Shown here: piece by piece, positions 6,515 through 40,000 of the stretch
Position numbering within the stretch: the first letter of the stretch is position 1
Layout: the number at the start of each line of letters is the position of its first letter
Position numbers and translations under genes: made by a program
Source of the DNA: Chamaelirium japonicum
Lineage: Eukaryota; Streptophyta; Magnoliopsida; Liliales; Melanthiaceae
Reading direction: 5' to 3'
DNA length: 64,000 bases
Assembly: GCA_947650365.1 (NCBI GenBank)
Contig: OX393550.1
Location: 102,326,343-102,390,342 of the forward strand
Notes under the pieces: generated by a model
The model's database searches: none
What the model was told of the DNA's origin: nothing
What the model saw: only the letters and a program-made list of their open reading frames with translations

Positions 6515-6841
6515 ATGGACGCCGTCGCCGACTAGAGCCTGACTCCCCTGCATGCCGCCGACGAGGAGGTCTTCGACCTGATCGAGCGGGAGAAGCGCCG
6601 GCAGTGCCGCGGGATCGAGCTGATCGCATCGGAGAACTTCACCTCGTTCGCTGTCATCGAGGCCCTCGGCAGCCCCCTCACCAACGAGTGCTTCGAGGGC
6701 ATGCCAGGCGCGCGCTACTACAGCTGCAACGACTTCACCGATGAGATCGAGAACCTCTGCCGCTCCCGCGCCCTCGCCACCTTCCACCTCGACCCCGCCC
6801 GCTGGGGCGTCAACGTGCAGCCCTACTCCGGCAGCCCCGCC
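6515..6841 (+). pseudogene. Captured 5' coding fragment of serine hydroxymethyltransferase
   Basis: Translating from the ATG at 6515 gives 109 codons that match the N-terminal part of plant cytosolic-type serine hydroxymethyltransferase, the pyridoxal-phosphate enzyme that interconverts serine and glycine with tetrahydrofolate. Diagnostic strings are [32 protein letters not shown], and FHLDP followed by [18 protein letters not shown] replaces codon 7, and the normally conserved region around the EGMPGARYY string has decayed (for example CN where GGN is usual). The pyridoxal-lysine region and everything after SGSPA are absent. The fragment lies inside E1 in sense orientation, between a GC-rich leader and a GA tract, so it is a retrotransposon-captured piece rather than a resident gene. 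Confidence 0.93.
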
Positions 6842-7469
6842 ATCAGTGCACCGCACGCCGACCACCGCCTCCGCCCGCGTCCGGAGCCGCACGCCGACCA
6901 ACACCTCCGCTCGCACCCGGTCGCCGCTGAGCCCCGCGCCACAGCCCGCGCACCGCACGCCGTTACCACCGCCCGGCCTGGTGAGAAAAGAGAGAGCGGA
7001 AGCTGCCCTCTCACAGAACAAAAGAAAAGGAGAGAGAGAGAGAGAAAGGAAAGAGAGAGAGAGGAAGCAGCAAATACGCTATGATGCTGACGTGTGACTT
7101 GTTTTTATGCGATTCACATGTTAGGACGTAAGGCTGAGACCGGGACACGTCATTCTTGCTGGAAAGCATTTTTCGGTTTGAACTTTGAAGCGTTGCGTCC
7201 GTTGGTACCATGAGAAAATTTGAGGCCTCTCGGGTCGGGGCCCGGGGGATGTGGTCCCACTCCCAGCGGTAGTCCGGGAACGGGGAGCGTATCTTATCAT
7301 ATTTAATGCGGCGATATTTTGGAGGGATGTCGGGAAGGGTAGCGTATTCGCTGCACTCACGTGAATAAAAGCTGAAGAAAGAAAAGAGAAAAACAAAAAA
7401 AGAAAGAGAGAAGCAAAGAAAGGAAAGAGAGAAAGAAAGAAAGGAAAAAGAAAAAGCTTTTCTTTCACC
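6842..7469 (+). other. E1 segment after the captured fragment: GC tail, GA tracts, unique 300-bp stretch
   Basis: 6842-6985 is GC-rich with CGCACGCCG repeats. 6990-7075 is a purine (GA) tract shared with E2 (about 40005-40060). 7085-7370 is of ordinary composition and has no counterpart in E2. 7370-7455 is an A/G-rich tract shared with E2 (40145-40215). The unique stretch encodes nothing recognisable. Confidence 0.6.
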
Positions 7470-7760
7470 AAAAGGCTCTCGGTATGCTCTCGGTACCCTC
7501 TCGGTATGCTCTCGGTATGCTCTCGGTACCCTCTCGGTATGCTCTCGGTACCCTCTCGGTCGGAAAACACACTGTGTTTTCGGAAACACACCCTTGCAAA
7601 ACCGAGACTTTTTGGCTTGCACCAAAAGGGTCTCGGTACCCTCTCGGTACCCACTCGGTACCCTCTCGGTACCCACTCGGTCGAAAAACGCACTGTTTCT
7701 TCGGAAACACCCCCTCGCAAAACCGAGACTTTTTGGCTCGCGCCAAAAAGGGTCCCGGCA
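7470..7760 (+). repeat. 11-bp tandem array near the E1 3' end
   Basis: Runs of an 11-bp unit of the form CTCTCGGTAYS lie at about 7472-7560 and 7627-7682, separated and followed by copies of a segment containing TTTCGGAAACAC, CCGAGACTTTTTGGCT and GCCAAAAAGGG. The same arrangement is present in E2 (40230-40530). Frames read on the minus strand across it give repetitive YREHTERVPRAYREH-type peptides that are not credible proteins. Confidence 0.88.
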
Positions 7761-7880
7761 TAGGCGGAAGAAGGCTCTGCTAATGCGAACCGCGGCACCG
7801 ACAACCCTCGCCAACCGTGCCAGGATCCTAAAGCGTTTGCACCATGGAATCCCAGCCGACCCAGGGGGTCCTGACTCGAC

Positions 7881-7894
7881 TGGGAGGGGGTAAC
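7881..7894 (+). other. Polypurine tract of E1
   Basis: TGGGAGGGGGTAAC directly precedes the TGTGGG start of the 3' LTR and is identical in E2 (40659-40671). This is the expected plus-strand priming site. Confidence 0.75.
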
Positions 7895-8511
7895 TGTGGG
7901 TGCAAAAATTGTACCGGACCAGATCAGAGCAGCATGGGCCCGCACAACGGCCCAAATGGGTAAGCCCGCCTGGGCTCACATGGGCCCACTCTACGGGGCT
8001 CGCAGATCAAGCCCTCCCCCTTATTGGGCCCGAACAACGGCCCAATAAGGGCCCAACAAGGAGGCCCAGAATCAGTGCCACGTCATCATCGCTACATCAT
8101 CACTGCCATATCGGGCACGTGCCTACGCTATAAAAGGACCCCCAAGGCATCCAGGAAGGGGGTTGGTCATTCGATCAGAGGAAGAGAGGATCCAGAGCCA
8201 GAGCCAGAGCCCTCTATTCTCCCCACTTTGTTCTCTTCTAGTTGCTCCGTGCAACCCCACTGTACGAAGCTTCTCTCGACCTGTCGAGAGAACGCTCAAC
8301 CCTTTATATTCAAATTATAGTGAAGATCAGGTGGCACCTCTCGCCCGGAGACGTAGGTCGTAAGACCGAACTCCGTCACCAATCCTTGTGTCATCACTCT
8401 TTATTCTCTTTATCTATTCTCCCATCTCTCTAACTCTACAAACAATCCAATTCAATCAAGGCTGTGGGGGCGGGATTCTCGATCAAGGCGGCTCGGAAAT
8501 TTCCCCCCACA
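7895..8511 (+). repeat. 3' LTR of E1 (617 bp)
   Basis: Starts TGTGGGTGC and ends CCCCACA, so the termini are TG..CA. It contains repeated GGCCCA/TGGGCC motifs, a 13-bp inverted repeat (CCCTTATTGGGCC..GGCCCAATAAGGG), one CACGTCATC (ACGT-core) box, the GGCACGTGCC palindrome and a TATA box at 8129. It differs from the 5' copy at about three positions. Confidence 0.95.
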
Positions 8512-8830
8512 GCGGTGAAGCCTGCCTCGGACTTTGTTTTCGAATGCCGAGACGAAGGTCACCTCGGGCCGAGACGGTACCGACGTCTCGGGCTTCGTCA
8601 GGTGCCGAGGCGGTGACGCCTGCCTTGGACTTTGTCTTCGAATGCCGAGGCGAAGGTCGCCTCGGGCCGAGACGTTGCCGATGTCTCGTGCTTCGTCAAG
8701 TGCCGAGGCGGTGAATCATGCCTCGGATTTTGCTTTTAAACGCCAAGGCTGTCACCTTGGGCCGAGATGATGTCGCCGTCTCGGGCTTTGTCTTTGTATG
8801 CCAAGGGTGGGACCTTGGACTTACTGATTG
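8512..8830. repeat. 98-bp tandem array (about three units) that received E1
   Basis: GCGGTGA recurs at 8512, 8610 and 8708. Units contain TGCCGAGGCG and CTCGGGCCGAGACG blocks. The E1 3' LTR ends immediately before the first GCGGTGA, so E1 inserted inside this array. Confidence 0.85.
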
Positions 8831-8844
8831 ACAGGGGGTAAGAA

Positions 8845-9790
8845 TTCAGAGTACTCAGCGTGGTGCATTTGTATCGGTTGGACTTAGGCAAAGCGCCGTT
8901 TCAGTCGAACCTACGTATTGGAACACATAGCTTTGTACCGTTGCAGGTTAGTCAACCGTGTCGCAATACGTACCGAACTAACTGTGGCAGGGCACTAGTG
9001 CATATGTCCTTACATGACAACGGGAGCATGTGCGATGCCAATGATTCGGAGTACTCAGCGTAGCGCCCTTGTATCGGTTGAACTTAGGCGAAGCACCGTT
9101 TCAGTCGAACCTACGTATCGAGACACATAGCTTTGTACTATTACAGGTTAGTAGGCCGTGTCGCAATGCAAACCGAACTAACTGTGGCGAGGCACTAGTG
9201 CATGTGTCCTTATATGACAACGGGAGCATGTGCGACGTCAATGATTCAGAGTACTCAGCGTAGCGCCCTTGTATCGGTTGGACTTAGGTGAAGCACCGTT
9301 CAGTCGAACCTACATATCGGGACACGTATCTTTGTACCGTTGTAGGTTAGTTGGCCGTGTCGCAATGCGAACCGAACTAACTGTAGCGAGGTACTAGTGC
9401 ATGTGTCCTTACGTGATAACAGGAGCATGTGCGACGCCAATGATTCGGAGTACTCTGCGTAGCGCCCTTGTATCGGTTGGCCTTAGGTGAATAGCCATTT
9501 TAGTCGAACCTACATATCGGGACACATAGCTTTGTACCGTTGCAGGTTAGTCGGCCGAGTCGCAACGCGAACCGAACTAACTGTGGCAAGGCACTAGTGC
9601 ACGTGTCCTTACGTGACAACGGGAGCATGTGCGACGCCAATGATTCGGAGTACTCAGCGTAGCGCGCTTATATCGGTTGGACTTAGGCGAAGAGCCATTT
9701 TAGTTGAACCTATGTATCGGGACACGTAGCTTTTGTACCGTTGCAGGTTAGTCGGCCATGTTGCAACACGAACGAAACTAACTGTGGCAT
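8845..9790. repeat. ~200-bp tandem array (about 4.7 units)
   Basis: GTACTCAGCG-type starts at 8851, 9051, 9251, about 9450 and about 9650 give a period of 199-200 bp. Units share GTATCGGTTGGACTTAGG, CTAACTGTGGC and GACAACGGGAGCATGTGCGA. Reading frames at 8860-9063 and 9069-9263 are similar to each other only because the units are repeats. It occupies the post-gag position of E3. Confidence 0.92.
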
Positions 9791-9997
9791 TAAGTAGAAG
9801 TTGAGATAGAATTTGATAGTATTCGATAAAACTTGAAGCAACTGTCATTTCATTGATAACTCGAAAGATGTTACATCATGGATTTCAGATGGGGGATCTT
9901 CCGAGTTGTTGATAGTCGGTGGTCTTTTACTCTGATCGGTTGACGGGCTACTTTTCTTTGGTATTTGTGGTCTTCTGAGGCTCTGTGGATCTATCGC

Positions 9998-11436
9998 CTA
10001 CCCGTCTTGACCTCTTGGAGGTTCTATCTTCCTCAGCCTTCGCGTTGTGAGCTTGAGTTGTTGGTCTCGTTCCATATCAGAAAGACGCTTCTTGAGATCA
10101 CGTTTCTTGCGAGCAACTTGATCATCCTCCACCTCGATCTCCTTTTTAATTCGATCGAATATCCCTCCGAGGGAGGCAGGAGGATTACGAATGAGATCAT
10201 TGTAGATGTGGAGGTCAAAACGTAGGGCATTCTGGAATGCAAGCATGATGACTTCATCATCGAGGTGGTGTCCGAAGAGCGTAGCATGCTCGTTTTGGAA
10301 CCTCCGAGAGAACTCTCGGAGGGTTTCATCCGATCCCATCTTGAGTCGGTAAAGGGAGTCCAGCTTCTTTTTTGGCTTGAGGTTCAGCCGATAGTGTTGA
10401 ACAAAAAGGTCTGCCAGATCCTCGAACCAACTCACGGAACCGGTCGGGAGGTTGTGATACCAATCGAGTGACATGTCGTCCAGGCTGCCAGCAAAGGTGC
10501 GGCATAGAACCTGGTTGTCGCTATCATGTGGTGTTAATGCTTGCCTGAAGGTGAGGATGTGTAGCGTCGGATGTTCAGCCAAACAATTGAACTTGGGGAG
10601 AGCGGGGGCTTTCCAGCTTCGAGGAAACAGGGCATGGAGAATATGCCGATGAAGTAGGCCTTTAGAGGCATGATCATTCCTTCTATTGCCTCACTGGTCG
10701 GAGAGGCATCTTGGAGGAAGAGGAGGTAGAGAGGGCGTCGGAGTCCATCCTGTCATCCGATGCCCGACTGGGGTTCGATTGCCATTGTAATATTGTCGAA
10801 TTTTGGAGCAATGTCGATTATTCTGAACATCTCTCCTGGTGTATGTATCGGAGGATGACTCGGAGCCCAGAGACTCGAGATGGCAAGCAGACTTATTGAG
10901 ACGCTCCCAGACAGTCGGCCTGGGAGGAACAGGCGAGGGTCCTCTCGAGAAGGATTTAAGAGAATATCGAGGGATGTTGACGGTGGATTGTTTGGAAAGA
11001 GTGGAAGATTGGTCGATCGACCGGTGGACGTTTGCTCCGTCGTTGATGTCGACGGTTGACTGCGGGGGATTAATTCTTGCATTGACTGTGATTTATCGGA
11101 GAGAGTCTCTCTCAACCATAAGAGCAGTATTCTGTTTCATGAGAGTGAGGAGCTGGAAGTCCTCTACTGTGATCGGTACATCGCTTGAGCATTGGCACTG
11201 GGAGAGATGTGTGCTTTCCCCAATCGCTGAGGAGTTAGGTCGGCGAGTTGAGACGACTGTCGAGGTTGAGTCTGGGTGACGCGATCAACCAAGGGGCGAC
11301 TCTTTGAATTAATAGCGAGTTGCTGTTCCGAGTATTGGATCGTCGTGAACCGACGACTCATTGAACGAGTCATTGGATGCTGAGTGTCTGGGTGCATACT
11401 GCTTTTCTCCGGCTGGTCTATTGGTGTCTTCGCCAT
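9998..11436 (-). pseudogene. Degraded gag of E3
   Basis: The open part (10582 to 9998) encodes a retrotransposon gag core closely related to that of E2: CRTFAGSLDD, DWYHNLPTGS, HYRLNLKPKKKLDSLYRLK, MGSDETLREFSRRFQNEHA and MLAFQNALRFDLHIYNDLIR. The match extends upstream past the first Met as LPKFNCLAEHPTLHIL. The N-terminal region (11436-10753) is split over frames. The C-terminal CxFHxxxGHxxxxC knuckle seen in E2 is absent; the frame stops after a basic KKRLSDMERDQ stretch. Gag would form the capsid-like particle that packages element RNA, but this copy is unlikely to work. Confidence 0.85.
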
Positions 11437-11559
11437 TTAGGTATAATGATGGAGACAGACGGATTGCTTGGGCAACCAGTAATAGCTACCGAAGGAGTTG
11501 GGAAGCTTAGAAGTTGTAAGTTGATAGAATCATTATCCCACAGACGACGCCATGCAAAC

Positions 11560-12243
11560 TGTGGGGGAGGATTTCGGCCGTCGTACATGACCCTCCTCCA
11601 ATAGTCGATTGAAGGTTTGACCCTTCGGGATGTGGCGCGCTTCGAAGCGCTGTTTTGTGACTTGCTGGGCCGTCACACAGGCACTGTAGAGGCGAAAGGT
11701 AGAGAAAGAGATGACACAAGATGTGGTGACAAAGTTCGGCCGAAGCCTACGTCTACATGCGGTAAGACACAACCTTTGAATCCACTATGTCTGAGTAAAC
11801 AGTAGAGCTACTCTCGACAGGCCGAGGTGTACTTTGTACAAGTAATCAGGGGGTGGAAAAGGAGTCTGAAAACCAAGAAACTCGAAGAGCTCTGGAAAAC
11901 AGAAAGTGGGTTTCTGGTCTGGAATTTCGGATCTGGAATCATTTACAGGGTTTGCTATTTATAAGGGCTTAGTTTATCTAGAGAATATTCTATGAATATT
12001 CCTAAGAAAATCCGGGTTTTGGTAAATACCCGGGGGGATTTACCAGACTCCAGATAGTGCAAGTGGGCCCCAGGCAAGGCTGCGGGTCCCACCGTTGTAC
12101 CCATGGGACCCAGGCAGGGCTGTGGGTCCCACTATTGGACTCGTGGGCCCCAAGAAGGACTGTGGGTCGCACTGTTGGTCTCGTAGGCCCTAAGCAGGGC
12201 TGTGGGTCCCACCGTTGGGCGTTAGCCAGATTTTGCACCCACA
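11560..12243 (-). repeat. 5' LTR of E3 (684 bp)
   Basis: On the minus strand it begins TGTGGGTGCAAAATC at 12243 and ends CCTCCCCCACA at 11560, followed by the primer-site region at about 11553-11537. A minus-strand TATA box (TATAAATAG) lies at 11955-11963. About 12060-12225 holds four imperfect 41-bp repeats built on GGGCCCCAGGCAGGGCTGTGGGTCCCAC. Confidence 0.85.
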
Positions 12244-14975
12244 AGTGCTACAGCATATTTTTCTTCCGCTCGATCGGTAGCGGTTGGTCACTCTCTCGTA
12301 TTAGTGGCATTTTTTTGTGGGGTTATTGAAAATCAAAACATTTCTCTCATTCCTAAAATGAGTTTGAATCTTTGGTCTATCTTGTGCCAACGCACTGACA
12401 TATGATTAACATGTGATGTACTGACCACTATAGTGGTCCCTTTAAAAAAAACAGAGATGATGATGTCATTGTGAGCAATCACAATGTTTGACCCATTGCT
12501 TTTTCTTGAGTTCAGATCTCCTCCATTCGTTTGGTCCACGTCGGTGGGCCCGACTTACATCACAGCCATATGCAATTGGTTGAAGGACGGTTCACTTTCG
12601 GGTCACTGCCATCTTTGCGGCTGTGATGAGCACCGGGCTCACCGACCGTCTGAAGAAGATCTAACTCTTTTTTCTCGTGTCTTCAACATTTTATTATTTT
12701 ACTTGACCGACTAGGTGGTTAGAGGACAGGGCGTTCGAGCATGGGCTCAATGAGGTCCGGAGATCGAAACAGGGGGAGGCAATCAACAATTGTTATTTAT
12801 TATTTCCATAATGACATGAATATGATATCAACGTCCTGGATTCACACACACAAACAAACACACAATGGCTTTGAGGGAAAACTTATTCCACGGAAGTCGA
12901 ACAGAGAACCTCTCCAACATAGGCGAGAGGAGGTACCACCAAGCCAATTCTGGAGGAGGTGCTACCCAATTCTTTTCGGATTTTTCGGAGCTAGAGCGAA
13001 AGTGAGATTACAGAGGTCGGTAATTTGGGAGACTGGTCCTCTCAGGGTGTAACTGGGTCAGGGTGAGAGATTGTAATCAGTTTACCGTATTAGTGCATTC
13101 TCGCCCCACCCCGCCCCGTGGTTTTTTCTCCTTCGACGTTGAGAAGGAGTTTTTCCACGTAAACCTGGTCCTCTTCGTTCTTTGATTTGTTAGATTGTGC
13201 ATTCCAAATGAACCGCCCGATCCAAAAAATTACCCCCCACGGTCATTGTCTCCAATTGACAATTCAGTTGGTAAAACATATACAACTAATGGCCTTGGTC
13301 AAGGGTTTGAATAAGTACTGCGACATATTTTTCTTTCACTCGATCGGTAGCGATGGGTCTCTCTTTCTCATCTTAGTGGCGAGCTTTTCTCTTTTTTTTT
13401 TCTCTGTGGGGTTATTAAAAATCAAGATATTTCTCTCGCTCCTATGATGAGTTTGGATCTTTGATCTATTTTGTACCGACGCACTAACATGTGATGTACT
13501 GACCACTATAGTGGTCCCTTAAAAAAAGAGAGATGGTGATGTCATTGTGAGCAATCACAATGTTTGACCCACTGTTTTTTCTTGAGTTCAGATCTCCTCC
13601 AGTCGATTGACCCACGTCAATGGGCCCGGCTTACATCACAGCTGCATGCAATCGGCTGAAGGATGATTCATACACTTTCGGGTCACTGCTATCTTTGCGG
13701 TTGTGATGAGCATCGGGCACACCGACTGGCTAAAAGAGATCTAACTCTTTTTTCTCATGTCATCAACATTTATTTTTTTACTGGACCAACTAGGCTCTTG
13801 ATTTGGTTCAGTTATCAACCCAAGGGCTACAAGAGTCAAATTTTAGTAAATAAATTATATTAAGCAAAATAGAGGGGCAATCTAAGGAATAGTCCATTGA
13901 AGAACTGATATCTCCTGATTGGCAGGACTATGGGCCATGGGATGAACCCTAGAGGCAACACCCCTGGATGGGTTGTTCGGTCATGAATTAACCAACTTTG
14001 AAATTCAAGAGCACTTCAACAAGCAAACTAATGCATAAAATTTCATATTAAGATCGGCTTTATTTGGTGTGTAATGATATCAAGTAAGAGTACTCCACTA
14101 CCCAATAAACAAAGCGGTTTAGCGAAAAGCATGTGATTAGCAAAGAGCCAAGAATCATTAGGAGACCCCATTCTTAGTGATGTAGAAGGTTTGAAAATGA
14201 GGATAAGACGATGATTAATTAATTAGCGTCTCCTGCCCTTCAAACATAAAAAAAAATAAGACAAGTCATTGTCTCTAATTGATAGTTCTGTTGGTAAGAC
14301 ATGCAACTAGTGGCCTTGGTCCAGGGCTCGAATAAGTGTTACGACATATTTTTCTTTCGCTCGATCGGTAGCGGCGGGTCTCTCTCTCATCTTAGAGGCG
14401 AGCTTTTTTTTTTTCTTCTGTGGGGTTATTGAAAATCAGGACATTTCTCTCGCTCCTAAAACGAGTTTGGATCTTTGGTCTATCTTGTGCCGACGCACTG
14501 ACATATGATTAGCATGTGATATAGTGACCACTAGATCTCCTCCATTCGTTTGGTCCACGTCGGTGGTCCCGACTTACATCACAGCCACATGCAATTGGCT
14601 GAAGGACGATTCACTTTCGGGTCGCTGCCATCTCTGCGGCTGTGATGAGCACCGGGCTCACCGATCGGCTGAAGAAGATCTAACTCTTTTTTCTCGTGTC
14701 TTCAACGTTTTATTATTTTACTGGACCGACTAGGCGGTCAGAGGACAGGGTGTTCGGGCATGGGCTCAATGAGGTCCGTAGATCGAAACAGGGGGAGGTA
14801 ATCAACAATTTTTATTTATTATTTCCATAATGACATGAATACGACATCAACGATCTGGATTCGCACACGCAAACAAGCACAACGGCTTTGAGGGACAACT
14901 TTTTCCACGGAAGTCGAACAGAGAACCTCTCCAACATAGGGGAGAGGAGGTACCACTACCACCAAGCCAATAGCT
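12244..14975. repeat. ~1-kb tandem triplication (units A, B, C)
   Basis: Three related units: A about 12244-12950, B about 13235-13800 and C about 14270-14975. All share GCATATTTTTC..GCTCGATCGGTAGCG, TTTCTCTCGCTCCTAAAA, the ATCTCCTCCATTCGTTTGGTCCACG stretch and a CATCTTTGCGGCTGTGATGAGCACCG block, at intervals of about 1020-1070 bp. A and C also share a long tail ending in GAACAGAGAACCTCTCCAAC. Frames at 12484, 13663 and 14524 give similar CHLCGCDEHRAH peptides, but this similarity follows from the duplication. B and C begin with GTTGGTAAGACATGCAACTAG and GGGCTCGAATAAG, faintly like tRNA A and B boxes, so a SINE ancestry is possible but unproven. Confidence 0.8.
13801..14269. other. Intervening sequence between units B and C
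   Basis: AT-rich sequence of ordinary complexity. No gene, terminal repeat or tandem structure was seen. Confidence 0.5.
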
Positions 14976-15063
14976 TATTGGTGTGTCTTCAACGTATATG
15001 AGCGCACGAACCACTCTTACTGTCCTTTGATCACACCCAAGAGAGCAGCTGTAGTAGGGAAAA

Positions 15064-15219
15064 TGCTATTTGAACATACAAAGCCATACACACGGACATA
15101 ATGCCGACGTGGATGGCATCGGCCAGTTCATTCGTTCGATGGCGGAGGCACTGAGGGCGATGCCACCGATGTCGGCATGATGTCCGCGTGTATGTCCCGT
15201 TCGTATGTTGCAATAGCAG
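15064..15219. mobile_element. Short MITE with ~60-bp inverted ends
   Basis: The left end (TGCTATTTGAACATACAAAG..CACACGGACATAATGCCGAC) is the reverse complement, with a few mismatches, of the right end (GTCGGCATGATGTCCGCGTGTATG..CATATGTTGCAATAGCA-like). The total is about 156 bp with almost no interior. A target duplication could not be fixed by eye. Confidence 0.7.
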
Positions 15220-15607
15220 TGCTCGTGTTGCTAAAAGATCCCTCAATCAAGCGATTCCTCTTCGAAAGTTGATGGGTCAGCGTCAGCTGTGACCGGTGAG
15301 TGGGAAGCCTCCAGGTTGGGACCATGGGGCCCTCCCTAGTGGGACAGCTGCAGCGAACCATGTAGGCTTTGAGACAGTCGGCGCATATGAACTCACGATG
15401 TTAAGATTGCTCTGTCGATCTGTGAACACTATCCACCAAATGATTTGGAGATAGAGAGAGAGACAGAGAGAGAGAGAGAGACTGGATTTTAAAACCCTAT
15501 CAACAAACAAGCCCTGTGGTAGAGAGAGACAGAGAGGAGTTTTAAAACCCTATCAACCCCCGAGACCTTTCTCATTGTCACGCACTGTCCTTCCTTACAC
15601 ACCACAC

Positions 15608-15612
<5 letters not shown>

Positions 15613-15683
<71 letters not shown>

Positions 15684-15702
15684 GGGGAGGGAGGGAGGGG
15701 TA
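15613..15702. repeat. (GA)n microsatellite followed by a G run
   Basis: About 29 GA dinucleotides run into some 15 consecutive G and then GGGA repeats. Frames over it are serine/leucine runs and not genes. Confidence 0.95.
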
Positions 15703-15849
15703 TTTTGGAGCATGTATAGCGGTCTCCTCAAAAGCATGATTGAGGACGATTTATATGCTACGTCGGCACCGTGTGAAAGCCCAACAATAACAATTGAATT
15801 CTTTTGGACCACACGATCGGCACTGTACGGCTACGATTTACAAGGACAA

Positions 15850-16212
15850 AGCCACTCGTGTGCACAAACGAGCCAAGATCAAATAGACCAAAGCTTGGCT
15901 CGATTAGGCTTGTGAACATGGCTGTTTAGAGCTCGTGAGTAGGCTTGTGAATAGGCTCGGCTTGAATAGAACTAACATATATAATCCATGCTTTTGATTG
16001 ATTATGAACAAGCTCCATATAGGACCGTTTGATCACTAATCGAGCGAAACCTAGCCTGAAGTTTAGGCTAAATCAAACTGAAGCAGACCAAAGCTCGGCT
16101 CGACTTGATTATTAATCAAGCCAAGCCCAAGCCTAAAGTTTAGGCTCGTTTAATAATTGAACAAGCTCAAAGATGTCAAAGCTAGACTCGGCTCATTTTA
16201 AGGCCTACCCTA
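15850..16212. mobile_element. Possible hAT-type MITE rich in GGCTCG/CGAGCC
   Basis: Repeated subterminal motifs AAGCTTGGCTCGATTAGGC, AAGCTCGGCTCGACTTGA and CAAGCCAAGCCCAAGCC, with a right end TTAAGGCCTACCCTA that resembles other hAT-type ends here. No matching left end or target duplication was identified. Confidence 0.4.
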
Positions 16213-16247
16213 GAGAGAAAGGGCATCTTTCAAACCCAGAGAGAGAC

Positions 16248-16325
16248 AGAGACATACATACACACAGAGAGAGAGAGAGAGAGTACCTTTCAACCCCCTC
16301 CCCCCCTCTCCGCCCCCACCCCCAC

Positions 16326-16380
<55 letters not shown>
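16248..16380. repeat. (GA)n microsatellites around a C-rich block
   Basis: GA runs at about 16260-16284 and 16330-16379 are separated by CCCCCTCTCCGCCCCCACCC. Confidence 0.9.
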
Positions 16381-16382
<2 letters not shown>

Positions 16383-29897: not shown

Positions 29898-30065
29898 CTC
29901 ACCGGTTGCATAGTCACCAGCCCTTTGGGCGGTGGCCGTGGCCATGTCGAAAGCAAACCGATAGGGTCTGGGGGTCGCTTACCTGGTGCAGGGCTCAGCT
30001 CCAGCTGGCCGGTTCCTCCTCCTCGCTCTGGTTTTCATGCACCGAACACCAGAGAGAGAGAGAGA

Positions 30066-30137
<72 letters not shown>

Positions 30138-30570
30138 AGAAGGGGGCGATGGCAGCGGCTTCTTCGGCCGGCTGCACCTCTCCGGCGTCGCCGCGTGCAG
30201 TCACACAGGAGAGATGGGGAGATCTGTAGGGAGAAAAAGAGGTCGGGGGGAGAGAGAGAGAGAGAGAGAGGCAGATCGGGGAGGGGGAAATGAGAGATCG
30301 GAGAGAGGTGAGGTCGGGTCTGGGTTTAGGGCTTGGATTGAAGGAGGGGGTAAGGGCTTGGTGTATTTCAAGGAGGAGGGGGGCAGCGGTCGGTACGGGC
30401 GAGGTCAGGTGGCCGGATTTTCTGGGATCCGGGTGAGGGATGAGCAAGGACGGAGAGGGGGAGAAAGGGAGAGAGAGAGGTGACGAGAGAGAGGGAGGTC
30501 GGGATGATGAGGGAGAGGGGGAACGGTGAATGGAGGGTTTATGGGATTTAGGTTGTACGAGTGGGTTAAG
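29898..30570. other. Intergenic; (GA)n microsatellite and purine-rich block
   Basis: A long GA/GATA run lies at 30050-30135, followed by purine-rich sequence to 30540. Its complement reads like the C/T-rich 5' leader of a plant gene, but no gene follows. Confidence 0.5.
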
Positions 30571-31002
30571 TAGGGGTGTCAACGGGTCGTGTCGTGTCTA
30601 GTTTCGGGTCGTGTCCAAACCCCTAGACCCGGACCTGACCCGTTTAACTAAACGTGTCTAGATTCTAAACCCGTACCCGACCGGCTAATAAATGGGTAAA
30701 CCCAATAAGACCCGGTAAGACCCGTTTACCACACGGGTCTATTCAGTTGACCCGATCCGGCCCAATCCAACTCGATCCGATAGACCCGCTGGTACTATAT
30801 ATTACAGTAGCGGATTGCAGGTAGACCCGACCCGACCCGTTGAATTTTAAACGGGTCTTCCCGGGTCTACCGTGTCCAGACCGTAAACCCGAACCCGACC
30901 CGCTTATTAAACGGGTCTATCGTGTCGACCCGTCTACGACCCGAACCTGTTTAACCCAGACCCAGACCCGCTAACTTTGTGGGTCCAACATTGCCAGCCC
31001 TA
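30571..31002. mobile_element. hAT-type non-autonomous element, GGGTCG family, copy 2
   Basis: Ends TAGGGGTGTCAAC and TTGCCAGCCCTA are imperfect inverted repeats. Flanks GGGTTAAG (30563-30570) and GGGTTGAG (31003-31010) agree at 7 of 8 bases, an 8-bp hAT-type duplication. The interior matches 17566-17973. Confidence 0.8.
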
Positions 31003-31010
31003 GGGTTGAG

Positions 31011-31608
31011 TGGAGATTGGGCTGGTTGGGTTGTGGGTTTGGCTGAAGTGGGGTGGTTGAAAGGGGTAGTTGGAAGGGGTAGTACGTGTAGAAGTGGTTT
31101 GGGTTGAGTTGTGAGAGGGGGGTGTTGAATAGAATTTTGATTGGATGATTTTGATGTGTCGGATTGAAATCCGGTGGCCGACGAAAAGAGAGGAGTTCAA
31201 GCTGAATCGAGTAAGTAGGAGAACCCATCGGCCCTATACCGACAATGTCGGTTGGATCCTGAGAGTTGCGCCACTTGGTGCCATGTGGCGACGGGTCGCT
31301 ACTAAGGCACACCTAGAATGTCGCAACACACACAGAATAAATTATTAAATAGTGTACACGTGCTCGCTTGCACGCTCAACACCCGCACCCACGCACATAC
31401 ACATGGTTAAACAATCATATTACTCACATCATTTCGCCTCGCGACCCGGATCTGGGACCTGCTACCCGGTCCAACACAAGTTCAACAAACAGTAAGCCAT
31501 ATCAAAAATTTGCAATAACAAGGGATCCACATTAGCAATAATATATTAATAAAAGGACGAATTTGGGTTACCCTAAGCGAAAATAACTCTAAAGTACCAT
31601 GTATTACA
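31011..31608. other. No gene seen
   Basis: G/T-rich then AT-rich intergenic sequence without recognisable coding or repeat structure. Confidence 0.45.
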
Positions 31609-31734
31609 CAAACCCAATTATCCCCACTTTGCCTCTTCACATTCCCAAGTCTGGCTACCAGGCCTTTACCAAATTATTGGGTACCGTCAAACCTCAGTGT
31701 GATTCTACCCCCTCGAGGCCATCCTTGCCGCAGC
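31609..31734 (+). repeat. Dispersed repeat R, copy 1, first piece
   Basis: Colinear with 43623-43750: CAAACCCAATTAT, TCATTCCCAAGT-like, GCCTTTACCAAAT, CTCAGTGTGATTCTACCCCC. It is interrupted after GCCGCAGC by the hAT element at 31735 and continues at 32393. Confidence 0.8.
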
Positions 31735-32384
31735 TAGGGGTGCAAGTCGGGTTGGTTCGGTTCGGTTTGGCCTCAAACCAAAACCAACCCAACCTATGGT
31801 CGGTTCCAACTTTCTCAACCCGGAACCAAACCATTGACCTATTGAACCAACCCAACCCAACCAATAAAAAGTTCGGGTCGGTTCGGGTTTAAGACTTTTT
31901 TTTCGGGCAATCCGAAATCAAACGAAGGATAACAAAAATAATATGCACAGCCTTTAAAAAGTGGAAACGGTTTAGACAAAGGCATCGTGAAAAATGGGAC
32001 AATCAGACACTTGCATCAAGAAACAAACAAGAAAGCATAGTAGTGACTCCAGCAAATCTATTGCAAAGCTTTTTAACAAGACCATTCATTTGCTTATCCT
32101 AAAGATGGATTAGAAGCGAAGTGTTTAAGTGATCAGTACAACATGTATTTGAATCAACACCATTGGTAAGCTGAATGCATATCTTACCAAAGTATTTAAG
32201 TAATACAAAGTCGGGTCGGGTCGGGTCATACAAACCTCGATCCATAATCGAACCGATTTAGATCGGGTCTGCTAATAACGAAACCGGATCCGACCCATTA
32301 TAAACTAGAAAACCGATCCAAACCAACCCAATGCGGTCGGGTCGGGTCGGTTCTCGGTTTGACCCGGACCAAGTTGCACCCCTA
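31735..32384. mobile_element. hAT-type element with perfect 8-bp target duplication
   Basis: Termini TAGGGGTGCAA and TTGCACCCCTA are perfect inverted repeats. GCCGCAGC flanks both sides (31727-31734 and 32385-32392). The uninterrupted relative at 43740-43755 (GTTGCAGCAAGTGG) confirms the empty site. Subterminal regions hold GGTTCGGTTCGG and CGGGTCGGGTCGG repeats. 650 bp, no transposase. Confidence 0.93.
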
Positions 32385-32392
32385 GCCGCAGC

Positions 32393-32888
32393 AAGTGGTG
32401 GGCTTAGGGTTTGGGGGACGTTATTGTAAACGGGTGAACTGAAATGGGTGCTGGTGGTGTTTAAAAAAAATCATTTTTTATATTTAATATTTAGTTCTTT
32501 TTGTTAAAAGTTTTATTAGCTATTTTCTATAAATATTTAAATGGCTAGCAATTAAACCAATTAAAGTCATTTGCATGGGAGATGTTACAAAATACCAACA
32601 ATTACTTAATGACTAGCTATTAAACCGCTTAAAGCCATTTGTATGGGAGACGTTGCATGTTTTGAATGGTGCTTAATATCCTTGTTATGTCTCTTCATCT
32701 ATAAATAGAGTATAGTGGGGAGAAACACAGAGTACAAGAAAAATTTATCTTCTCTTCTTTCTCCATATTATGAACTTTTGTTTTGAGGCTTTCAACATTT
32801 TCATTCTAGTAGTTGTTGTGTTCTTGAAAGGAAGATTGAGCTTGTATGTCTTTCTTGAAGACGTACCGACGAGAAGGATGGTGGATAC
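32393..32888 (+). repeat. Dispersed repeat R, copy 1, second piece (LTR-like)
   Basis: Continues the match to 43756-43918 (AAGTGGTGGGCTTAGGGTTTGGGG; CGACGAGAAGGATGGT) but also has about 330 bp absent from copy 2, with a TATA-like CTATAAATAGAG at about 32699. It ends at the GATAC that was duplicated by the E2 insertion. Confidence 0.7.
32884..32888. other. Target-site duplication of E2 (left)
   Basis: GATAC directly before the TGTGGG of the 5' LTR; the same five bases follow the 3' LTR at 41273-41277. Confidence 0.95.
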
Positions 32889-33488
32889 TGTGGGTGCAAA
32901 AATTGTACCGGACCAGATCAGAGCAGCATGGGCCCGCGCAACGGCCAAAATGGGTAAGCCCGCCTGGGCTCACATGGGCCCACTCTACGAGGCTCGCAGA
33001 TCAAGCCCTACCCCTTATTGGGCCCGAACAACGGCCCAATAAGGGCCCAGCAAGGAGGCCCAGAACCAGTGCCACGTCATCAGCGCCACGTCATCACTGC
33101 CATATCGGGCACGTGCCTACGCTATAAAAGAACCCCCAAGGCATCCAGGAAGGGGGTTGGTCATTCAATCAGTGGAAGAGAGGATCCAGAGCTAGAGCTT
33201 ACTTCTCTCATCCTAGTTTCTTTTCTTGTTGTTCCGTGCAACCCCCACTGTAAAGAGCTTCTCTTGGCCTGTCGAGAGAACGCTCAACCCTTTATATTCA
33301 TATTATAGTGAAGATCAGGTGGCACCTCTCGCCCGGAGACGTAGGTCGTAAGACCGAACTTCGACAACAACTCCACGTGTCAATCCTATCTCCCTACTTT
33401 CTAATCTCTAATTCTACAAACAATCCAATTCAATCAAGGCTGTGGGGTGGGGGTTCCCGATCAAGGTGCTCGGAAATTTCCCCCCACA
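32889..33488 (+). repeat. 5' LTR of E2 (600 bp)
   Basis: TGTGGG..CCCACA; TATA box TATAAAAG at 33123. Two CCACGTCATC boxes and many GGCCCA/TGGGCC motifs lie upstream of the TATA box. Confidence 0.95.
33005..33130 (+). promoter_or_regulatory. LTR promoter region of E2
   Basis: Within about 125 bp: a 13-bp inverted repeat of TTATTGGGCC type, several GGCCCA (site II-like) motifs, two CCACGTCA (ACGT-core) boxes, the GGCACGTGCC palindrome and TATAAAAG. GGCCCA motifs are known as TCP-type sites in promoters of growth-related plant genes, and ACGT cores as bZIP/bHLH sites; activity here is inferred. Confidence 0.55.
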
Positions 33489-33628
33489 ATCTTTGGCGTC
33501 GTCTGTGGGATATCGATAGAGGTCTTACCCACACCTCTACCGACTCCTATTAAGCTTGTGGTGACGAGCCACAAGTCCTCCTCCAAATCAACCTCAAAGC
33601 CTTCACCACGCCGACATCAACACGCTCA

Positions 33629-34279
33629 ATGGTGAAGGCCAGCACCAACCCACCAAAGGCGGGTGCTGATCGGACAATCGACGTGCTAATCGAAGAAGAA
33701 CAAGAAGTCTCGGTTGCAACCAATCGAAGAAATGTTTATAAGCGACTGGGGCCACAAGGAAGTCATCCGGGAAGCCACAGCAATCGGCAGGACCCACCAT
33801 TCCCGAGGCAACAATCTAGCAAAGAGCACGCCACCCAAGGGGACAACGATCTAACTACATACCAAATTTCGGCTGCTGATTTCCAGCTGTTGAACCTTCT
33901 CAAGAGGAATGCAGCCCTCGAGCAAGAGAGGGATTCCCTAAAGAAGGTAGCTGAAAGAGCGGGGGTTGTGGCCCACAACTCTCTAACTGCTGATGAAGAC
34001 CAACCAAGGACTCGCCCAGCCGTGATTCATCATCTTGAAGAATCACATGTGCCACGTATCGAGAGGCGTCAAGTATCCACACAAGCACCAAGGCAAACGG
34101 TGTGGGATCGCCTCGACGTCAACGGTGCGCCCAACTATTGCGGAGAAGGATCACCTCAGTCAACAGGGTCCACTAGACATTCTATCCCTTCGCACACGAA
34201 AGCAACAGATGCCCGCGAACTGCTCAACCGACTAAGGCATACTGCCGACGTGGGACGCCGCCATCAAGACCGTAGGTAA
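33629..34279 (+). pseudogene. E2 gag, N-terminal part (ends at an in-frame TAA)
   Basis: The ATG at 33629 opens 216 codons ending in TAA at 34277-34279. The next frame (34280-35281) is in the same phase, and its first residues continue the gag homology, so one nonsense codon splits a single gag gene. This part is hydrophilic with a coiled-coil-like ALEQERDSLKKVAERA segment at about residues 98-113. In gypsy elements the region precedes the capsid core. Readthrough cannot be judged from sequence. Confidence 0.85.
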
Positions 34280-35281
34280 CTAATCACCTCGGTGGGGCCA
34301 CTGCATCCCAAGGTTCTTGCAACACCATTTCCTATGGGTTGGCGAACACCGAACCTACCAAAGTTCAACTGCATCCGAGGAGACCCTGCTCTCCATATCC
34401 TAGCCTACAAGCAGGCCTTGACGCCCTACGAATATGAGAACCATGTTCTCTGCCGTATGTTTGTGGGAAGCCTCGAGGGACCTGCCCTCGACTGGTACTA
34501 CACACTGCCTACCGGTACGGTGGCCACATTCAAAGAGTTGGCTGAACTTTTCATGGACCATTATCGGTTAAACTTAAAGCCGAAAAAGAGGCTGGATACA
34601 CTCTACCAGCTGAAGATGGGCTCCGACGAGTCTCTAAGGAGCTTCACGATGAGGTTTCGTAATGAGCATTCTGAGCTCACCGGTCGCTCCTATAATGAGG
34701 AGGCCATCATGCTGGCATTCCAGAATGCTATCCGGCCAGAGCTCCACGTCTACACCGACTTCATCCGACATCCTTCCAATAACTTGGAAGCGATGTTCAA
34801 GCGCGTACAGCGGGAGATAGAGGTGGAAGACAATCAGCGGGCCAGAAGACTACGCGAGCCCCGCGAGTCTCGTGACTCCCGATATAAGAAAGATGATGAA
34901 GCTCCGAATGAAGCACATTACAAGAAGTCTGCCCATGCCGCGTCCGACCAAAAGGTGCAGGCCAAAAGGTACAATGAAGATCCGAAAGCCCCTCCAGCAG
35001 AAAAGAGGCGAACTCCAAGAGAGCAAAGGGTATTCACTGAGCTGAATACCTCCATTGAAGACATCTTCGCATACTTGCAGAACGAGCCCTTTTGCAAGTG
35101 GCCACAGCCGCTCCCTCCAAATTCCGACCAGGCGGAAGATACGACAGCCTACTGTGAGTTTCATCACAGCCATGGCCACCCAACCTCTACATGTCGGAAG
35201 CTAAAGCATCACATCGAAGACCTGATCCAAGAAGGGCGGCTCGATGGCTACCTCGCTAATAAGGAACCAGGTCGAGAGTAG
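34280..35281 (+). CDS. E2 gag, capsid core and C-terminal knuckle
   Basis: This frame is open without an ATG (first GTG 34292), in phase with 33629-34279. It contains the plant retrotransposon gag domain: PNLPKFNCIRGDPALHI, CRMFVGSLEGPALDWYYTLP, FMDHYRLNLKPKKRLDTLYQ, MGSDESLRSFTMRF and MLAFQNAIRPELHVYTDFIR. A basic region follows, then FTELNTSIEDIFAYLQNEPF and a zinc-knuckle-like CEFHHSHGHPTSTC. The product would form the particle that packages element RNA. The gene ends at 35281 with no protease downstream. An upstream in-frame stop makes it doubtful that this copy is expressed intact. Confidence 0.88.
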   Translation, partial: LITSVGPLHPKVLATPFPMGWRTPNLPKFNCIRGDPALHILAYKQALTPYEYENHVLCRMFVGSLEGPALDWYYTLPTGTVATFKELAELFMDHYRLNLKPKKRLDTLYQLKMGSDESLRSFTMRFRNEHSELTGRSYNEEAIMLAFQNAIRPELHVYTDFIRHPSNNLEAMFKRVQREIEVEDNQRARRLREPRESRDSRYKKDDEAPNEAHYKKSAHAASDQKVQAKRYNEDPKAPPAEKRRTPREQRVFTELNTSIEDIFAYLQNEPFCKWPQPLPPNSDQAEDTTAYCEFHHSHGHPTSTCRKLKHHIEDLIQEGRLDGYLANKEPGRE

Positions 35282-35389
35282 GAGAGGCTGCAGCAGTGGA
35301 GAAAAGAAAGTCAATGTAATACGTGGATGCGTAATCGTAACGTCCGCGGGGCAACCTCTGAAAAAGTGTAACTGCAACTTTGTTATATC

Positions 35390-35395
35390 AATAAA
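35390..35395 (+). terminator. Possible polyadenylation signal after E2 gag
   Basis: AATAAA lies about 110 bp after the gag stop and before the tandem arrays. It could end a gag-only mRNA; this is only suggestive because the motif is common in AT-rich DNA. Confidence 0.35.
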
Positions 35396-35454
35396 GTGTC
35401 TTTTTTTCTCAAAATCAAATCTCTCGAAGTTCGATTCCACCATATTAAGGCAAA

Positions 35455-36010
35455 AAAAAAAGCTCCTGGCAAACCAGGTCAACGAAAGACCCTCGATTCC
35501 GCCCATTCAAGTCGGAAGCTCGAAGGTAATTAAGTCGGCTACACCATCTCGAGGCTAAAGATCGATAAAAAGGCTCCTAGCAACCCAGGTCAACCAAAGA
35601 CCTTCGACTCCGCCCGTTCAAGTCGGAAGCTCGAAGGCAATTCGGCTACGCCCTCTCGAGGCTAAAGTCCGATAAAAAGGCTCCTGGCAACCCAGGTCAA
35701 CCAAAGACCTTTGATTCCGCCCATTCAAGTCGAAAGCTCGAAGGCAATTCGGCTACGCCCTCTCGAGGCTAAAGTCCGATAAAAAGGCTCCTGGCAAACC
35801 AGATCAACCAAAGACCTTTGATTCCGCCCATTCAAGTCGGAAGCTCGAAGGTAAGTCGGCTACGCCCTCTCGAGGCTAAAGACCGATAAAAAGGCTCCTG
35901 GCAACCCAGGTCAACCAAAGACCTTCGATTCCGCCCATTCAAGTTGGAAGCTCGAAGGCAATTCGGCTACACCCTCTCAAGGCGAAAGTCAGATAAAAAT
36001 GCTCCTGACA
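35455..36010 (+). repeat. 107-bp tandem array of E2 (about 5 copies)
   Basis: Same unit as E1 1010-2215 (GGCTCCTGGCAAC, TCAAGTCGGAAGCTCGAAGG) with more sequence variation and fewer copies. Confidence 0.92.
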
Positions 36011-36126
36011 ATCCAAGTCAAGCTAAATTATCAACTAGACTCATCCGAGGCGATGAGAATAAGTCCAAGGCAGGCGTCGTCGCTTTGACATGCACCAAGT
36101 TCAAGGAGACATCCTTGACATTCGAA

Positions 36127-36930
36127 GACAAAGTCCAAGGCGACCAATGCCTCGGCACTCTACAAGCCCAAGGCCCAGCCCTTGGCATTCGAAGACAAAG
36201 TCCGAGGCGACCAATGCCTCGGCACTCTACAAGCCCAAGGCCCGGTCCTTGGCACACGAAGACAAAGTCCGAGGCGACCAACGCCTCGGCACTCTACAAG
36301 CCCAAGGCCCAGCCCTTGGCATTCGAAGACAAAGTCTGAGGCGACCAATGCCTCGGCACTCTACAAGCCCAAGGCCCAGCCCTTGGCGTTCGAAGATAAA
36401 GTCCGAGGCGACCAATGTCTCGGCACTCTACAAGCCCAAGGCCCAGTCCTTGGCACACGAAGACAAAGTCCGAGGCGACCGACGCCTCGACACTCTACAA
36501 GCCCAAGGCCCAGCCCTTGGCATTCGAGGACAAAGTCTGAGGCGACCAATGCCTCGGCACTCTACAAGCCCAAGGCCCAGCCCTTGGCATTCGAAGACAA
36601 AGTTCGAGGCGACTAATGCCTCGGTACTCTACAAGCCCAAGGCCCAACCCTTGACACTCGAAGACAAAGTCCGAGGTGACCAATGCCTCGGCACTCTACA
36701 AGCCCAAGGCCCAGCCCTTGGCACTCGAATACAAAGTCCGAGGCGACCAGCGCCTCGGCACTCTACAAGCCCAAGGCCCAGCCCTTGGCACTTGAAGACA
36801 ACGTTCGAGACGACCAACGCCTTGGCACTCTACAAGCCCAAGGCCCAGCCCTTGGCATTCGAAGACAAAGTCCGAGACGTCGTCACCGACGTATTGGCAT
36901 TCGATCAAAAGTCCAAACTTAGTCTTGTCA
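36127..36930 (+). repeat. 67-bp tandem array of E2 (12 unit starts)
   Basis: Starts recur exactly every 67 bp from 36127 to 36864. Each unit has the CGAGGCG..CGCCTCG and CCAAGG..CCTTGG inverted repeats. Because 67 is not a multiple of 3, a frame passes through all three phases; none of the phases holds a stop in most units, giving a 297-codon open frame at 36090-36983 (GTLQAQGPALGIRRQSPRRP-type repeats). No known protein resembles it, so it is listed as a repeat. Confidence 0.93.
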
Positions 36931-37364
36931 CTCGGGTCCAAGCATCAGATTGTCACTGGCCATCACCTTTTTTCGACGACTAACGGTTCCAAACCGATCA
37001 GGGGGTGGTTGGTCTGACTCTGTCAGTGCGTGTCTCCACACTGGTGCAGTCGACGGTGGGTGACACGGGATAAAATGGTGCTTCCTTGATCCTGGCCAAG
37101 TCAACACCCTCACGTGACCGTAGTACCTGGTGAATACAGTAACCTGGTGCGGTAATACATTGGGTGAAGACCGGCTGGCCATCATGCGGCATCATCCTAG
37201 ATTATCTCTAAGAAACCCCCTCAAATATAGCATTGTCTCTCGCCGACATCCTCGCGCACCAACGTTTCACCGAAAAAGTGTCGGTTTCAAATGGGGCTGA
37301 AATTCGAAAAATACACTATTTTCAATACCGACACTTTTTAGCCTCTTCTAGCAGCCCCAATAAT

Positions 37365-38015
37365 GGGGTGTCGGCATCAACCAGCAGCCCCCCCTCGATT
37401 TCGCACAAAAACCGAGTGGGGAAGGGATGACGGCACACCATCAGCAACACGCACCTCGGTTTCGTCAGAAAATCGAGAGGGGGTGTGTGTCGGCATCAAC
37501 AAGCAACCCCCCCTTGGTTTCGCACAAAAACCGAGTGGGGGGGGGGGGTGACGGCACACCCCTCGGTTTCGTCAGAAAACTGAGAGGGGGTGTGTGTTGG
37601 CATCAACAAGCAACCCCCCCTCGGTTTCGCACAAAAACCGAGTGGGGAGGGGGTGACGACACACCATCAGCACACCCCTCGGTTTCGTCAGAAAATCGAG
37701 AGGGGGTATGTGTTGGCATCAACAAGCAGCCCCCCCTCAGTTTCGCACAAAAACCGAGTGGGGAAGGGACGACGGCACACCATCAGCAACACACCCCGGC
37801 CTCGGTTTCGTCAGAAAACCGAGAGGGGGTGTGTGTCGGCATCAACAAGCAACCCCCCTCGGTTTCGCACAAAAAACCGAGTGGGAAGGGGGTGACAGCA
37901 CACCATCAGCAGCCCACCCCTCGTTTTCGACGGAAAACCGAGAGGGGGGGTGTACGGCATCAATATCAACCCACCCCTTGGTTTCGTCAGAAAACCGAGG
38001 GGGGGGGGGTGCTCG
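37365..38015 (+). repeat. ~120-bp tandem array with CTCGGTTT hairpins (E2)
   Basis: Counterpart of E1 3570-4830 with fewer units and a run of ten G near 37540. Confidence 0.88.
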
Positions 38016-38700
38016 ACGTCATCCAAACTTATTAGTCAATCCAATTCAAGTGGCATTCGCACACAAGGATCAGCCAAAGACGAAGAGTTATCTTCCATTG
38101 GGTAGGTTGAATAGCATCTCCACCAAACCTATTGAGTTGGCTGTACAAACTTCACAAGCAAAATTCCTCCTTCTTATCTGGGGGTGGACTCGTGGTAACC
38201 GCCGCGTCATCGCTAGGGCCCGACTGCAGTCCCTAGTGAATACAGTAACTAGGAGCAATTGGGTGTCGAACAGAGACGGATGAGTTACCACGTATCGATG
38301 CCTCTCCAAGACGCGCGTAGGACACTCGGTCAATGCGTTCTTTAGAGTCATCTCTTTATGAAGGTGATTACCGGAAAAGTTACTCGTCAAGGTGTATGAT
38401 GTTTCACGTCCACTTTGACCGGTTTTTCGGCGCCTACACAATGACATCTTATACACATTCAGCCAACACGTGTATGAAAAGTTATGGCTGTCAGAGGTTT
38501 TCGAGAGCCTTATCTCCGAAGCTGAGCAACGGAAAAGTTATACGTCAAGGTGAACTATATTTCACGTCTACCTTGATCAGTTTTTCGACGCCGACGCAAT
38601 GGCGCCTTATACGCATCGATCCGATGCTCGTATGAAAAGTTATGATTGTCGGAAGTTTTCGAGACATTTCTTCCTGAAGACCAACTTCGGAGAAGTTACA
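38016..38700 (+). repeat. E2 spacer with 158-bp direct repeat
   Basis: CGGAAAAGTTA-type starts at 38372, 38530 and 38687; otherwise a non-coding match to E1 4831-5520. Confidence 0.7.
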
Positions 38701-39555
38701 CGGCAGCGACGGTCACACTGACGCCTTCAACCTGGTTCACTATGCGACCAACTCGCAGCAGGCCAAACACTGCGCATAAGAGAAGAACTCATGCCTCTCC
38801 TCGCGAGCATGGGTACTTGGCGGCAGCGGGTCGGAATGGGGACAAGGGGTTGGATGAACCAAACCCCCCTCCTACACGCTCTCCTCACACATACCTCATG
38901 CACACGCTACTCCTTGCAGCCAACAGAGACAACCCGGGGTGGGGTCGAACGAACCAAATGTCCCTCCTTCTCCGCACGTCCACCTTGCAGCCGACAGAGA
39001 CAACCCGGCGTGGGGTCGGACGAGCCAAACGCTCTCCCCCCCACAACGCGTGTCTCCTCCAAGCCCGTGTGTATCTCGCAGCAGAGAAGAGAGAGAGGGT
39101 CGGACGTACCGATCCCCCCTTCTCACGCTCCGCCTCGCAGCAGCTGAAGGCCCCCCCTCTCACGTGTTCCTCTCACCGAAAGCAAAGAAGGAAAGAGAGA
39201 GAGGTGCGCCGCCCGTCTGACACACCGAACCCGCGCTCCGCTCCAGCCCGATGGCATGCTGCCGCTGCTGCTGCTCTCCCTCCTGAAGCCTGGTCCGATC
39301 GCCCATCACTCGCCGCCCATCTGACACGCCAGACCCCGTGCTCCGCTCCGACTCGATCGCCTGCTGGCGCAGCTGCTCTCTCTCTTGAAGCTCGGTCCGA
39401 TTGCCCCGCGCTCGATGCCCGGCCACCGCTGGCCACCTCTGCACCCCGCGCCCGTGCCCACCTCTTTGCACCCTGATCCGGACCGGCGGTATCACAGTGA
39501 TGTAGAGAGAGAGAACTGGGTACTGCCAAATTTATAAATGGATATAGGGAACCAT
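38701..39555 (+). other. GC-rich leader of E2 upstream of the captured fragment
   Basis: Diverged counterpart of E1 5521-6514. It contains an imperfect repeat of a ~65-bp segment (CTTGCAGCCRACAGAGACAA, then GTCGGACGAGCC) and a (CTG)n stretch near 39265. No gene is recognised. Confidence 0.5.
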
Positions 39556-39560
39556 CAAGG

Positions 39561-40000
39561 TTGAGCTCGTCGGAGCCCATGATGATGGGGCCCAATTCTT
39601 ACGGAGGTGGTGTTCCAAACAGTTCGATGTCAATGGTGATGCCGGGTTCGGCGGGAATGATTCCGGGCATGCACCCCTCTTTCAACCACATGGTGTCTTC
39701 CTCGTCGAAGTTGATAGACACTCCCAGCTCTTTGTACCAGGGAGGGCCGAGCGGTGCGCTTAACATCGGGGAGACGGTGAAGAAGAAGAGAGGGAGGCCG
39801 AGGAAATATGGGCCGGATGGGAGCATGGCCTTGGCTTTATCGCCTCTTTCTCCTCCTTCTGGGTGCTCTAACAGTACGATGTCGGAACCATCGCCTAAGC
39901 GACGAGGCCGCCCTCCTGGATCGGGGAAGAAGCAGCAACTTGATGCCCTGGGCTCACTAGGGATTGCTTTTACTCCACAACTTATCACTGTTAAAGCCGA
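39561..40000 (+). pseudogene. Captured 5' coding fragment of an AT-hook (AHL) nuclear protein
   Basis: The frame gives about 147 residues matching the N-terminal half of plant AHL proteins, which bind AT-rich DNA at nuclear matrix regions and regulate growth genes. Two AT-hooks are visible: KKKRGRPRKYGPDG (RGRP core at residues 77-80) and KRRGRPPGSGKKQQLDALGS (RGRP 115-118). The start of the PPC domain follows as FTPQLITVKAE, where the match stops and a GA tract begins. The likely start codon reads TTG instead of ATG; the next ATG is codon 7. The rest of the PPC domain, needed for trimer formation, is missing. It sits inside E2 in sense orientation, in the slot that holds the SHMT fragment in E1. 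Confidence 0.92.

Follow-up and report, generated by a model that had tools for sequence, protein, structure and literature searches.

A 64,000 nt stretch of the Chamaelirium japonicum genome (the window) contains two related long terminal repeat (LTR) retrotransposons, E1 (1-8511, its left end lying outside the window) and E2 (32889-41272, plus strand), which carry pieces of different host genes at the same internal position. Together with further elements in the source genome (G000, 1.52 Gb), they point, with a probability of roughly 0.84, to a high-copy LTR retrotransposon family with a hypervariable slot, in which cargo was acquired by template switching onto spliced host mRNA and was then spread by retrotransposition and reshuffled.

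One internal slot with pieces of many host genes

E1 and E2 had been described in an earlier note as siblings with recurrent capture of host genes in one slot, and both claims are borne out. The LTRs of the two elements are 86-88% identical, and tandem arrays of 107, 67, approximately 120, 158 and 11 bp follow one another in identical order. The elements are colinear on both sides of the slot, with colinearity ending at E1 5702 / E2 38887 and restarting at E1 7390 / E2 40145. The GC-rich leader that was thought to be common to both is so only for a landmark at 5481-5702 in E1 (plus strand; 38667-38887 in E2, 70.7% identity), whereas the GC-rich leaders beyond it differ and display only a weak likeness (2 of 200 shuffles were as good, and 3 of 200 when just the GC parts were compared). 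The E1 slot is closed by a GA tract (7012-7067, plus strand), downstream of which a short piece (7188-7215, plus strand) is common to E2 (40085-40112; none of 200 shuffles was as good). The 11-bp arrays, used as a further landmark, follow at 7475-7681 in E1 and 40230-40458 in E2, both on the plus strand.

When the 11-bp array of E1 was used as a query against G000, 1354 candidate places were obtained, and the 40 that were scored correspond to E1, E2 and 38 further elements. Approximately 5.3 kb was fetched for each of these 38, covering the slot side only. The E1/E2-type leader landmark was present in 17 of the 38 (19 of 40 with E1 and E2), and the leader and closing tracts of the slots were common to varying extents while the interiors differed. 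Host gene pieces were identified by tools in 12 of the 40 elements, and in 10 of the 19 landmark-bearing ones (E1 and E2 included). They belong to nine donor families: serine hydroxymethyltransferase (SHMT; E1, L019), AHL (E2), NAC (L010, L043), PDX1 (L013, L021), RPS2 (L021), beta-tubulin (L040), CAF1 (L028; PDB 1e-8, Pfam just 0.24), class III peroxidase (L036; PDB 1e-9, Pfam 0.0004, below the cut-off) and GT2 glycosyltransferase (L014, and L031 through a 98% DNA match). For the leader-type elements, 79 of 103 sense frames (at least 55 residues) from 12 representatives were scanned with Pfam. A further 120 frames were scanned out of 234, comprising both strands of 13 elements without the landmark and the antisense frames of 10 leader-type ones, after array and low-complexity frames had been dropped.

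Since such diverse donors occupy an equal internal position, host transcripts appear to have been picked up repeatedly, and not in a single accident. Descent of one SHMT or AHL piece into all members, the finding that would have spoken for a single event, is contradicted by the nine donor families, although single captures do spread by descent, as seen for SHMT (at least 10 elements), AHL (9 full-length places) and tubulin (5 places). Capture of 5' ends in sense orientation, as proposed earlier, describes E1 and E2 well, but the pieces of RPS2, CAF1, peroxidase and GT2 come from inside the gene or from nearer its 3' end, and the tubulin piece of L040 is antisense.

Some slots hold composite cargo. 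The RPS2 and PDX1 pieces lie consecutively in L021, where RPS2 is joined to the PDX1 part present in L013; a KH-type piece and a last piece of the same element, judged from reading only, are perhaps two additional host pieces. The NAC piece starts identically in L010 and L043 and ends differently. Read by eye, L014 looks like CSLC and L044 is CSLC-like; the latter would be a 13th element, and Pfam gave no family for its frames. Elements L017, L035, L041 and L046 have one reading frame in common, which to the eye has a membrane-protein look, and Pfam gave no family for the L041 and L017 frames. The other 23 of the 40 elements yielded no nameable piece with Pfam on representatives and part of the frames. 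A PMEI match (5e-5) in one member was not placed in the slot and was not counted as cargo, and weak matches to TRP, DUF7857 and zf-FPG_IleRS were obtained in one member each.

Spliced host mRNA as the probable source of cargo

Donor genes were located for SHMT, AHL and tubulin, and an intron test was possible for the latter two. The AHL and tubulin cargo originated from RNA: as the earlier note had proposed to check, two introns are absent from the AHL piece and one from the tubulin piece, at canonical splice sites. The AHL piece spans about 39473-39998 in E2 (plus strand, left limit at 39467-39473); its earlier identification was correct (best match E = 8.7e-49, top named matches AHL10-like), but the limits of 39561-40000 given with it were not. 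It consists of the end of the 5' untranslated region (UTR) exon and coding exons 1 and 2 of a donor gene on C6, joined at 39488/39489 and 39951/39952. The donor has a 378 bp intron in the 5'UTR (GGCG/GTATGA ... GTAAG/GTATCA) and a 655 bp coding intron after the LDALG codons (CCTGG/GTATTG ... TACAG/GCTC), neither of which is found in the piece. The UTR exon was located by a 21-base pattern with two mismatches allowed, which occurred at 11 places (nine of them AHL-bearing, plus the donor and C6:19919626), while the reversed control gave no places. AHL frames of other plants, read by eye, diverge at LDALG in some cases and at KAGE in others, as expected for exon ends. The donor exon ends at GGAGAG/GTAAGA, and E2 there reads GAAGAGGAAAGAGAG, running into the GA tract (40000-40061, plus strand), within which the AHL piece ends.

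A genome search with the AHL piece (14 of 14 candidates scored) returned E2, eight more full-length places and one partial one. The GC-rich leader module of E2 (39207-39453, plus strand) was considered as AHL 5'UTR and rejected, as it is present in whole or in part at no fewer than 31 places other than those of the AHL piece (40 of 79 candidates scored); three of the 31 extend to 39440-39453 and the rest to about 39359-39378. Four AHL-piece copies at G000:C4:59952029-59965420 recur every 4303 bp exactly, in the manner of a tandem array. The AHL frame itself (39579-40121) is open across the GA tract and is a possible chimera, in which two AT-hook-like motifs would be combined with a tail rich in R and E; Pfam AT_hook gave a single weak match (0.072).

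The antisense beta-tubulin cargo of L040 covers the 5'UTR and about 210 codons, interrupted by one stop, and lacks an intron of approximately 2.7 kb that is present in the donor on C1 (CCAAG/GTGAGG ... TTGCAG/GATTCC); nine other tubulin loci give an equivalent two-part match. With 27 of 27 candidates scored, the piece was found in L040 and at 4 further places at 96%. In the 5'UTR region of the donor, a TATA-like box is closely followed by a CT tract, and this tract, antisense in L040, merges with the GA tract of the element. A complementary DNA (cDNA) of the tubulin mRNA would end in GA repeats, which could pair with the element's CT strand.

The SHMT piece in E1 (6417-6842, plus strand) comprises 98 nt from the 5'UTR of the donor, followed by its first 109 codons and one further base. 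The gene had been named correctly (E = 4.4e-47 to SHM4, 6smr), but the piece had been placed at 6515-6841, leaving out the UTR. It is 96.0% identical to a donor gene on contig C134 (17 of 426 bases differ) and more distant from a second SHMT gene on C8. The first coding exon of the C134 donor is open, and the piece ends within it. Its first base lies 35 nt downstream of the first T in the TATA box of the donor, the usual distance between TATA box and transcription start in plants; the piece leaves out the promoter and starts close to where the mRNA is predicted to begin. A stop interrupts the frame at codon 7, and synonymous and non-synonymous divergence are similar (dS 0.040 vs dN 0.037), which fits decay without selection. 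Among the SHMT elements (L019 and L050 being one and the same), the 5' junction is common to 10, apart from slight shifts of the alignment in L055 and L056, while the 3' junction lies at 6842 in E1 and at 6832 in the other nine. The 10 additional bases in E1 are true SHMT sequence, so the capture was followed by a replacement of the 3' side. A purine tract lies upstream of the SHMT segment (6293-6341, plus strand), and a module at 6851-6973 (plus strand), between SHMT and the GA tract, is present at a minimum of 28 other places without a listed SHMT match (40 of 348 candidates scored for the SHMT piece and this module).

Mechanism and alternative explanations

In the proposed mechanism, the growing cDNA would leave the element RNA during reverse transcription, continue on a spliced host mRNA, copy part of it, sometimes to about the mRNA 5' end, and then switch back into element RNA, leaving the host piece between the leader and the GA-rich tract. 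Each chimera would be multiplied by retrotransposition, and later switches between element RNAs would trim and reshuffle cargo and leader modules. Switching presumably takes place in particles, with a reverse transcriptase that would be supplied by an autonomous partner.

Several observations weigh against this account, or against a part of it. No host piece was identified by tools in 28 of the 40 elements (Pfam being applied to representatives and part of the frames), and the 38 further elements were read on the slot side only, so that captures elsewhere would be missed. The SHMT piece lies within a single exon and therefore offers no intron test, and its present 3' junctions are outside any purine run. 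The picture around purine tracts is mixed. In 13 representatives of the 19 leader-type slots, 46 of 79 starts of homology lay near such a tract, where 19.7 would be expected; this excess speaks for a role of the tract, but it may be inflated by tract-to-tract similarity and by the shared history of the rows, and homology ends were not enriched near such tracts (16 of 71 vs 17.2 expected).

Switching could occur along the whole element, with the slot marking only the region that tolerates insertions and with no active part for the purine tract; this is compatible with template switching onto host mRNA, and we consider the chances of it to be a little short of even. The common leader ends at varying points among elements, the homology ends show no purine excess, and just E2 and L040, of the junctions read, touch the GA tract, all of which agree with the absence of a special site. 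It is harder to reconcile with two independent donors, in opposite orientations, both being joined at GA/CT homology. The switch at the purine tract suggested in the earlier note accordingly fits E2 and L040 but not the present SHMT junctions. The GA tract is probably one landing place, reached via short purine homology, and it may have an active role. A bolder version, in which it acts as an internal site resembling a polypurine tract, where strand transfers are primed or received again and again, and in which the family is a cassette system sampling host mRNAs in either orientation via GA/CT homology and recombining the pieces into new multi-gene chimeras, appears doubtful at present.

Insertion of processed copies made by long interspersed nuclear elements (LINEs), which were then carried along, would likewise yield spliced pieces, but is a very improbable source of the cargo. 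LINE copies are expected to lack the 5' end and to keep a 3' end with poly(A), whereas the pieces in E1, E2 and L040 retain the 5' side without the 3' side, and no tail was seen at the junctions read (E1-type SHMT, E2 and L040), target duplications of the cargo not having been searched for. Capture of genomic gene fragments at the DNA level, by gap repair or ectopic exchange, would easily produce the antisense orientation of L040 and is not opposed by SHMT or by the donors beyond the three located, but it is refuted for AHL and tubulin by three introns of two donors missing exactly at splice sites, and is the least probable source overall.

The family provides many independent junctions in a single system, being high in copy number and having one slot, with donors identifiable within the genome itself, exact splice evidence and repeated secondary switching. 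Template switching, strand bias and site preference in gene capture by plant LTR elements become measurable there, as opposed to being inferred from single events.

Architecture of E1 and E2 and their surroundings

Both elements have hallmarks of LTR retrotransposons, with paired TG..CA LTRs and, for E2, a target duplication; the left flank of E1 is beyond the window. The 5' LTR of E1 (1-499, plus strand) is cut by the window edge, ends in CCCACA and is 99.4% identical to 8013-8511 over 499 bp, within the 3' LTR (7895-8511, plus strand, TGTGGG...CCCACA). The LTRs of E2 (32889-33488 and 40672-41272, both plus strand) are 98.7% identical over 603 bp and are directly flanked by GATAC on both sides (32884-32888 and 41273-41277). 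These identities suggest that E1 and E2 are young insertions. The E1 5' LTR is directly followed by TTTGGCGCCGTC, which resembles a primer binding site; the candidate site is TTTGGCGCCGTCTGTGGGA, from which E2 differs by one base. A candidate polypurine tract, GGGAGGGGG, precedes the 3' LTR in both elements.

A gag core was found in E2 (34280-35278, plus strand; Retrotrans_gag 7.1e-9). The region around it (34002-35455) has no counterpart in E1 among the BLAST rows, so E1 is not gag-only, and the shared gag of the earlier note has to be given up. No pol domain was detected in the ten frames scanned (seven from E2 and three from E1), and a DUF7622 match from one array frame of E1 stayed below the cut-off. 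The family is thus non-autonomous as far as seen. A gag protein query gave none of 805 candidates at E 0.001, and none on viral contigs.

A third related gag lies at 10181-10564 (minus strand), with 68% DNA identity to the E2 gag over 386 bp, and is separated from the right end of E1 by arrays of 98 and 200 bp (8512-9789). Elsewhere in the window, frames read by eye at 54587-56004 and 59901-60596 (minus strand) look like two parts of one PPR gene; between them lie two 1.4-kb repeats (55959-57350 and 58553-59947), 98.7% identical to each other.

Comparison with known systems

TR-GAG elements are defined by LTRs and gag in the absence of pol. E2 resembles them in having LTRs and gag and no pol in the seven frames scanned, while E1 lacks the gag core, and both elements differ from them in having several tandem arrays and a cargo slot. 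In the Retand lineage, about half of the members have tandem arrays ahead of the 3' LTR, some members are non-autonomous, and there is an antisense TRP28 open reading frame (PMC11963269). It is, however, defined by reverse transcriptase phylogeny, and E1 and E2 show no pol by which to place them.

LTR elements carrying host genes or gene pieces have been described in maize, rice, sorghum and pepper (PMC2774510, PMC3726574, PMC5664825). A 2026 review discusses transduction and abnormal template switching, cites Bs1, TRIM, Rider, Veju and BARE for plants, and states that 5'-transduction is unreported there (PMC13317346). Maize Bs1, as outlined in that review, is an LTR element that carries parts of three host genes, but it is one element, whereas the E1/E2 family consists of siblings with different donors in one slot. 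The available text of a maize survey reports 425 elements with gene fragments, from at least 189 independent captures in 81 families, and, under its own conditions, no element with more than one nuclear gene, while L021 holds RPS2 and PDX1; nor does that text mention a common slot (PMC2774510). A parallel in mechanism is the retroduplication of NLR genes in pepper, where spliced mRNA was captured, about 72% of it in non-autonomous LTR elements (PMC5664825). The same traits are seen here, the copy lying inside an LTR element in E1 and E2 and donor introns being absent for AHL and tubulin, but the pepper study stresses one gene class, and the present family carries short pieces of unrelated genes. 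Among the titles and abstract openings listed in searches of openly licensed papers, no description of a single LTR family with one multi-donor slot was found. Gene capture by plant LTR elements is known, and what is unusual in the family of E1 and E2 is a fixed slot that holds pieces of many donors.

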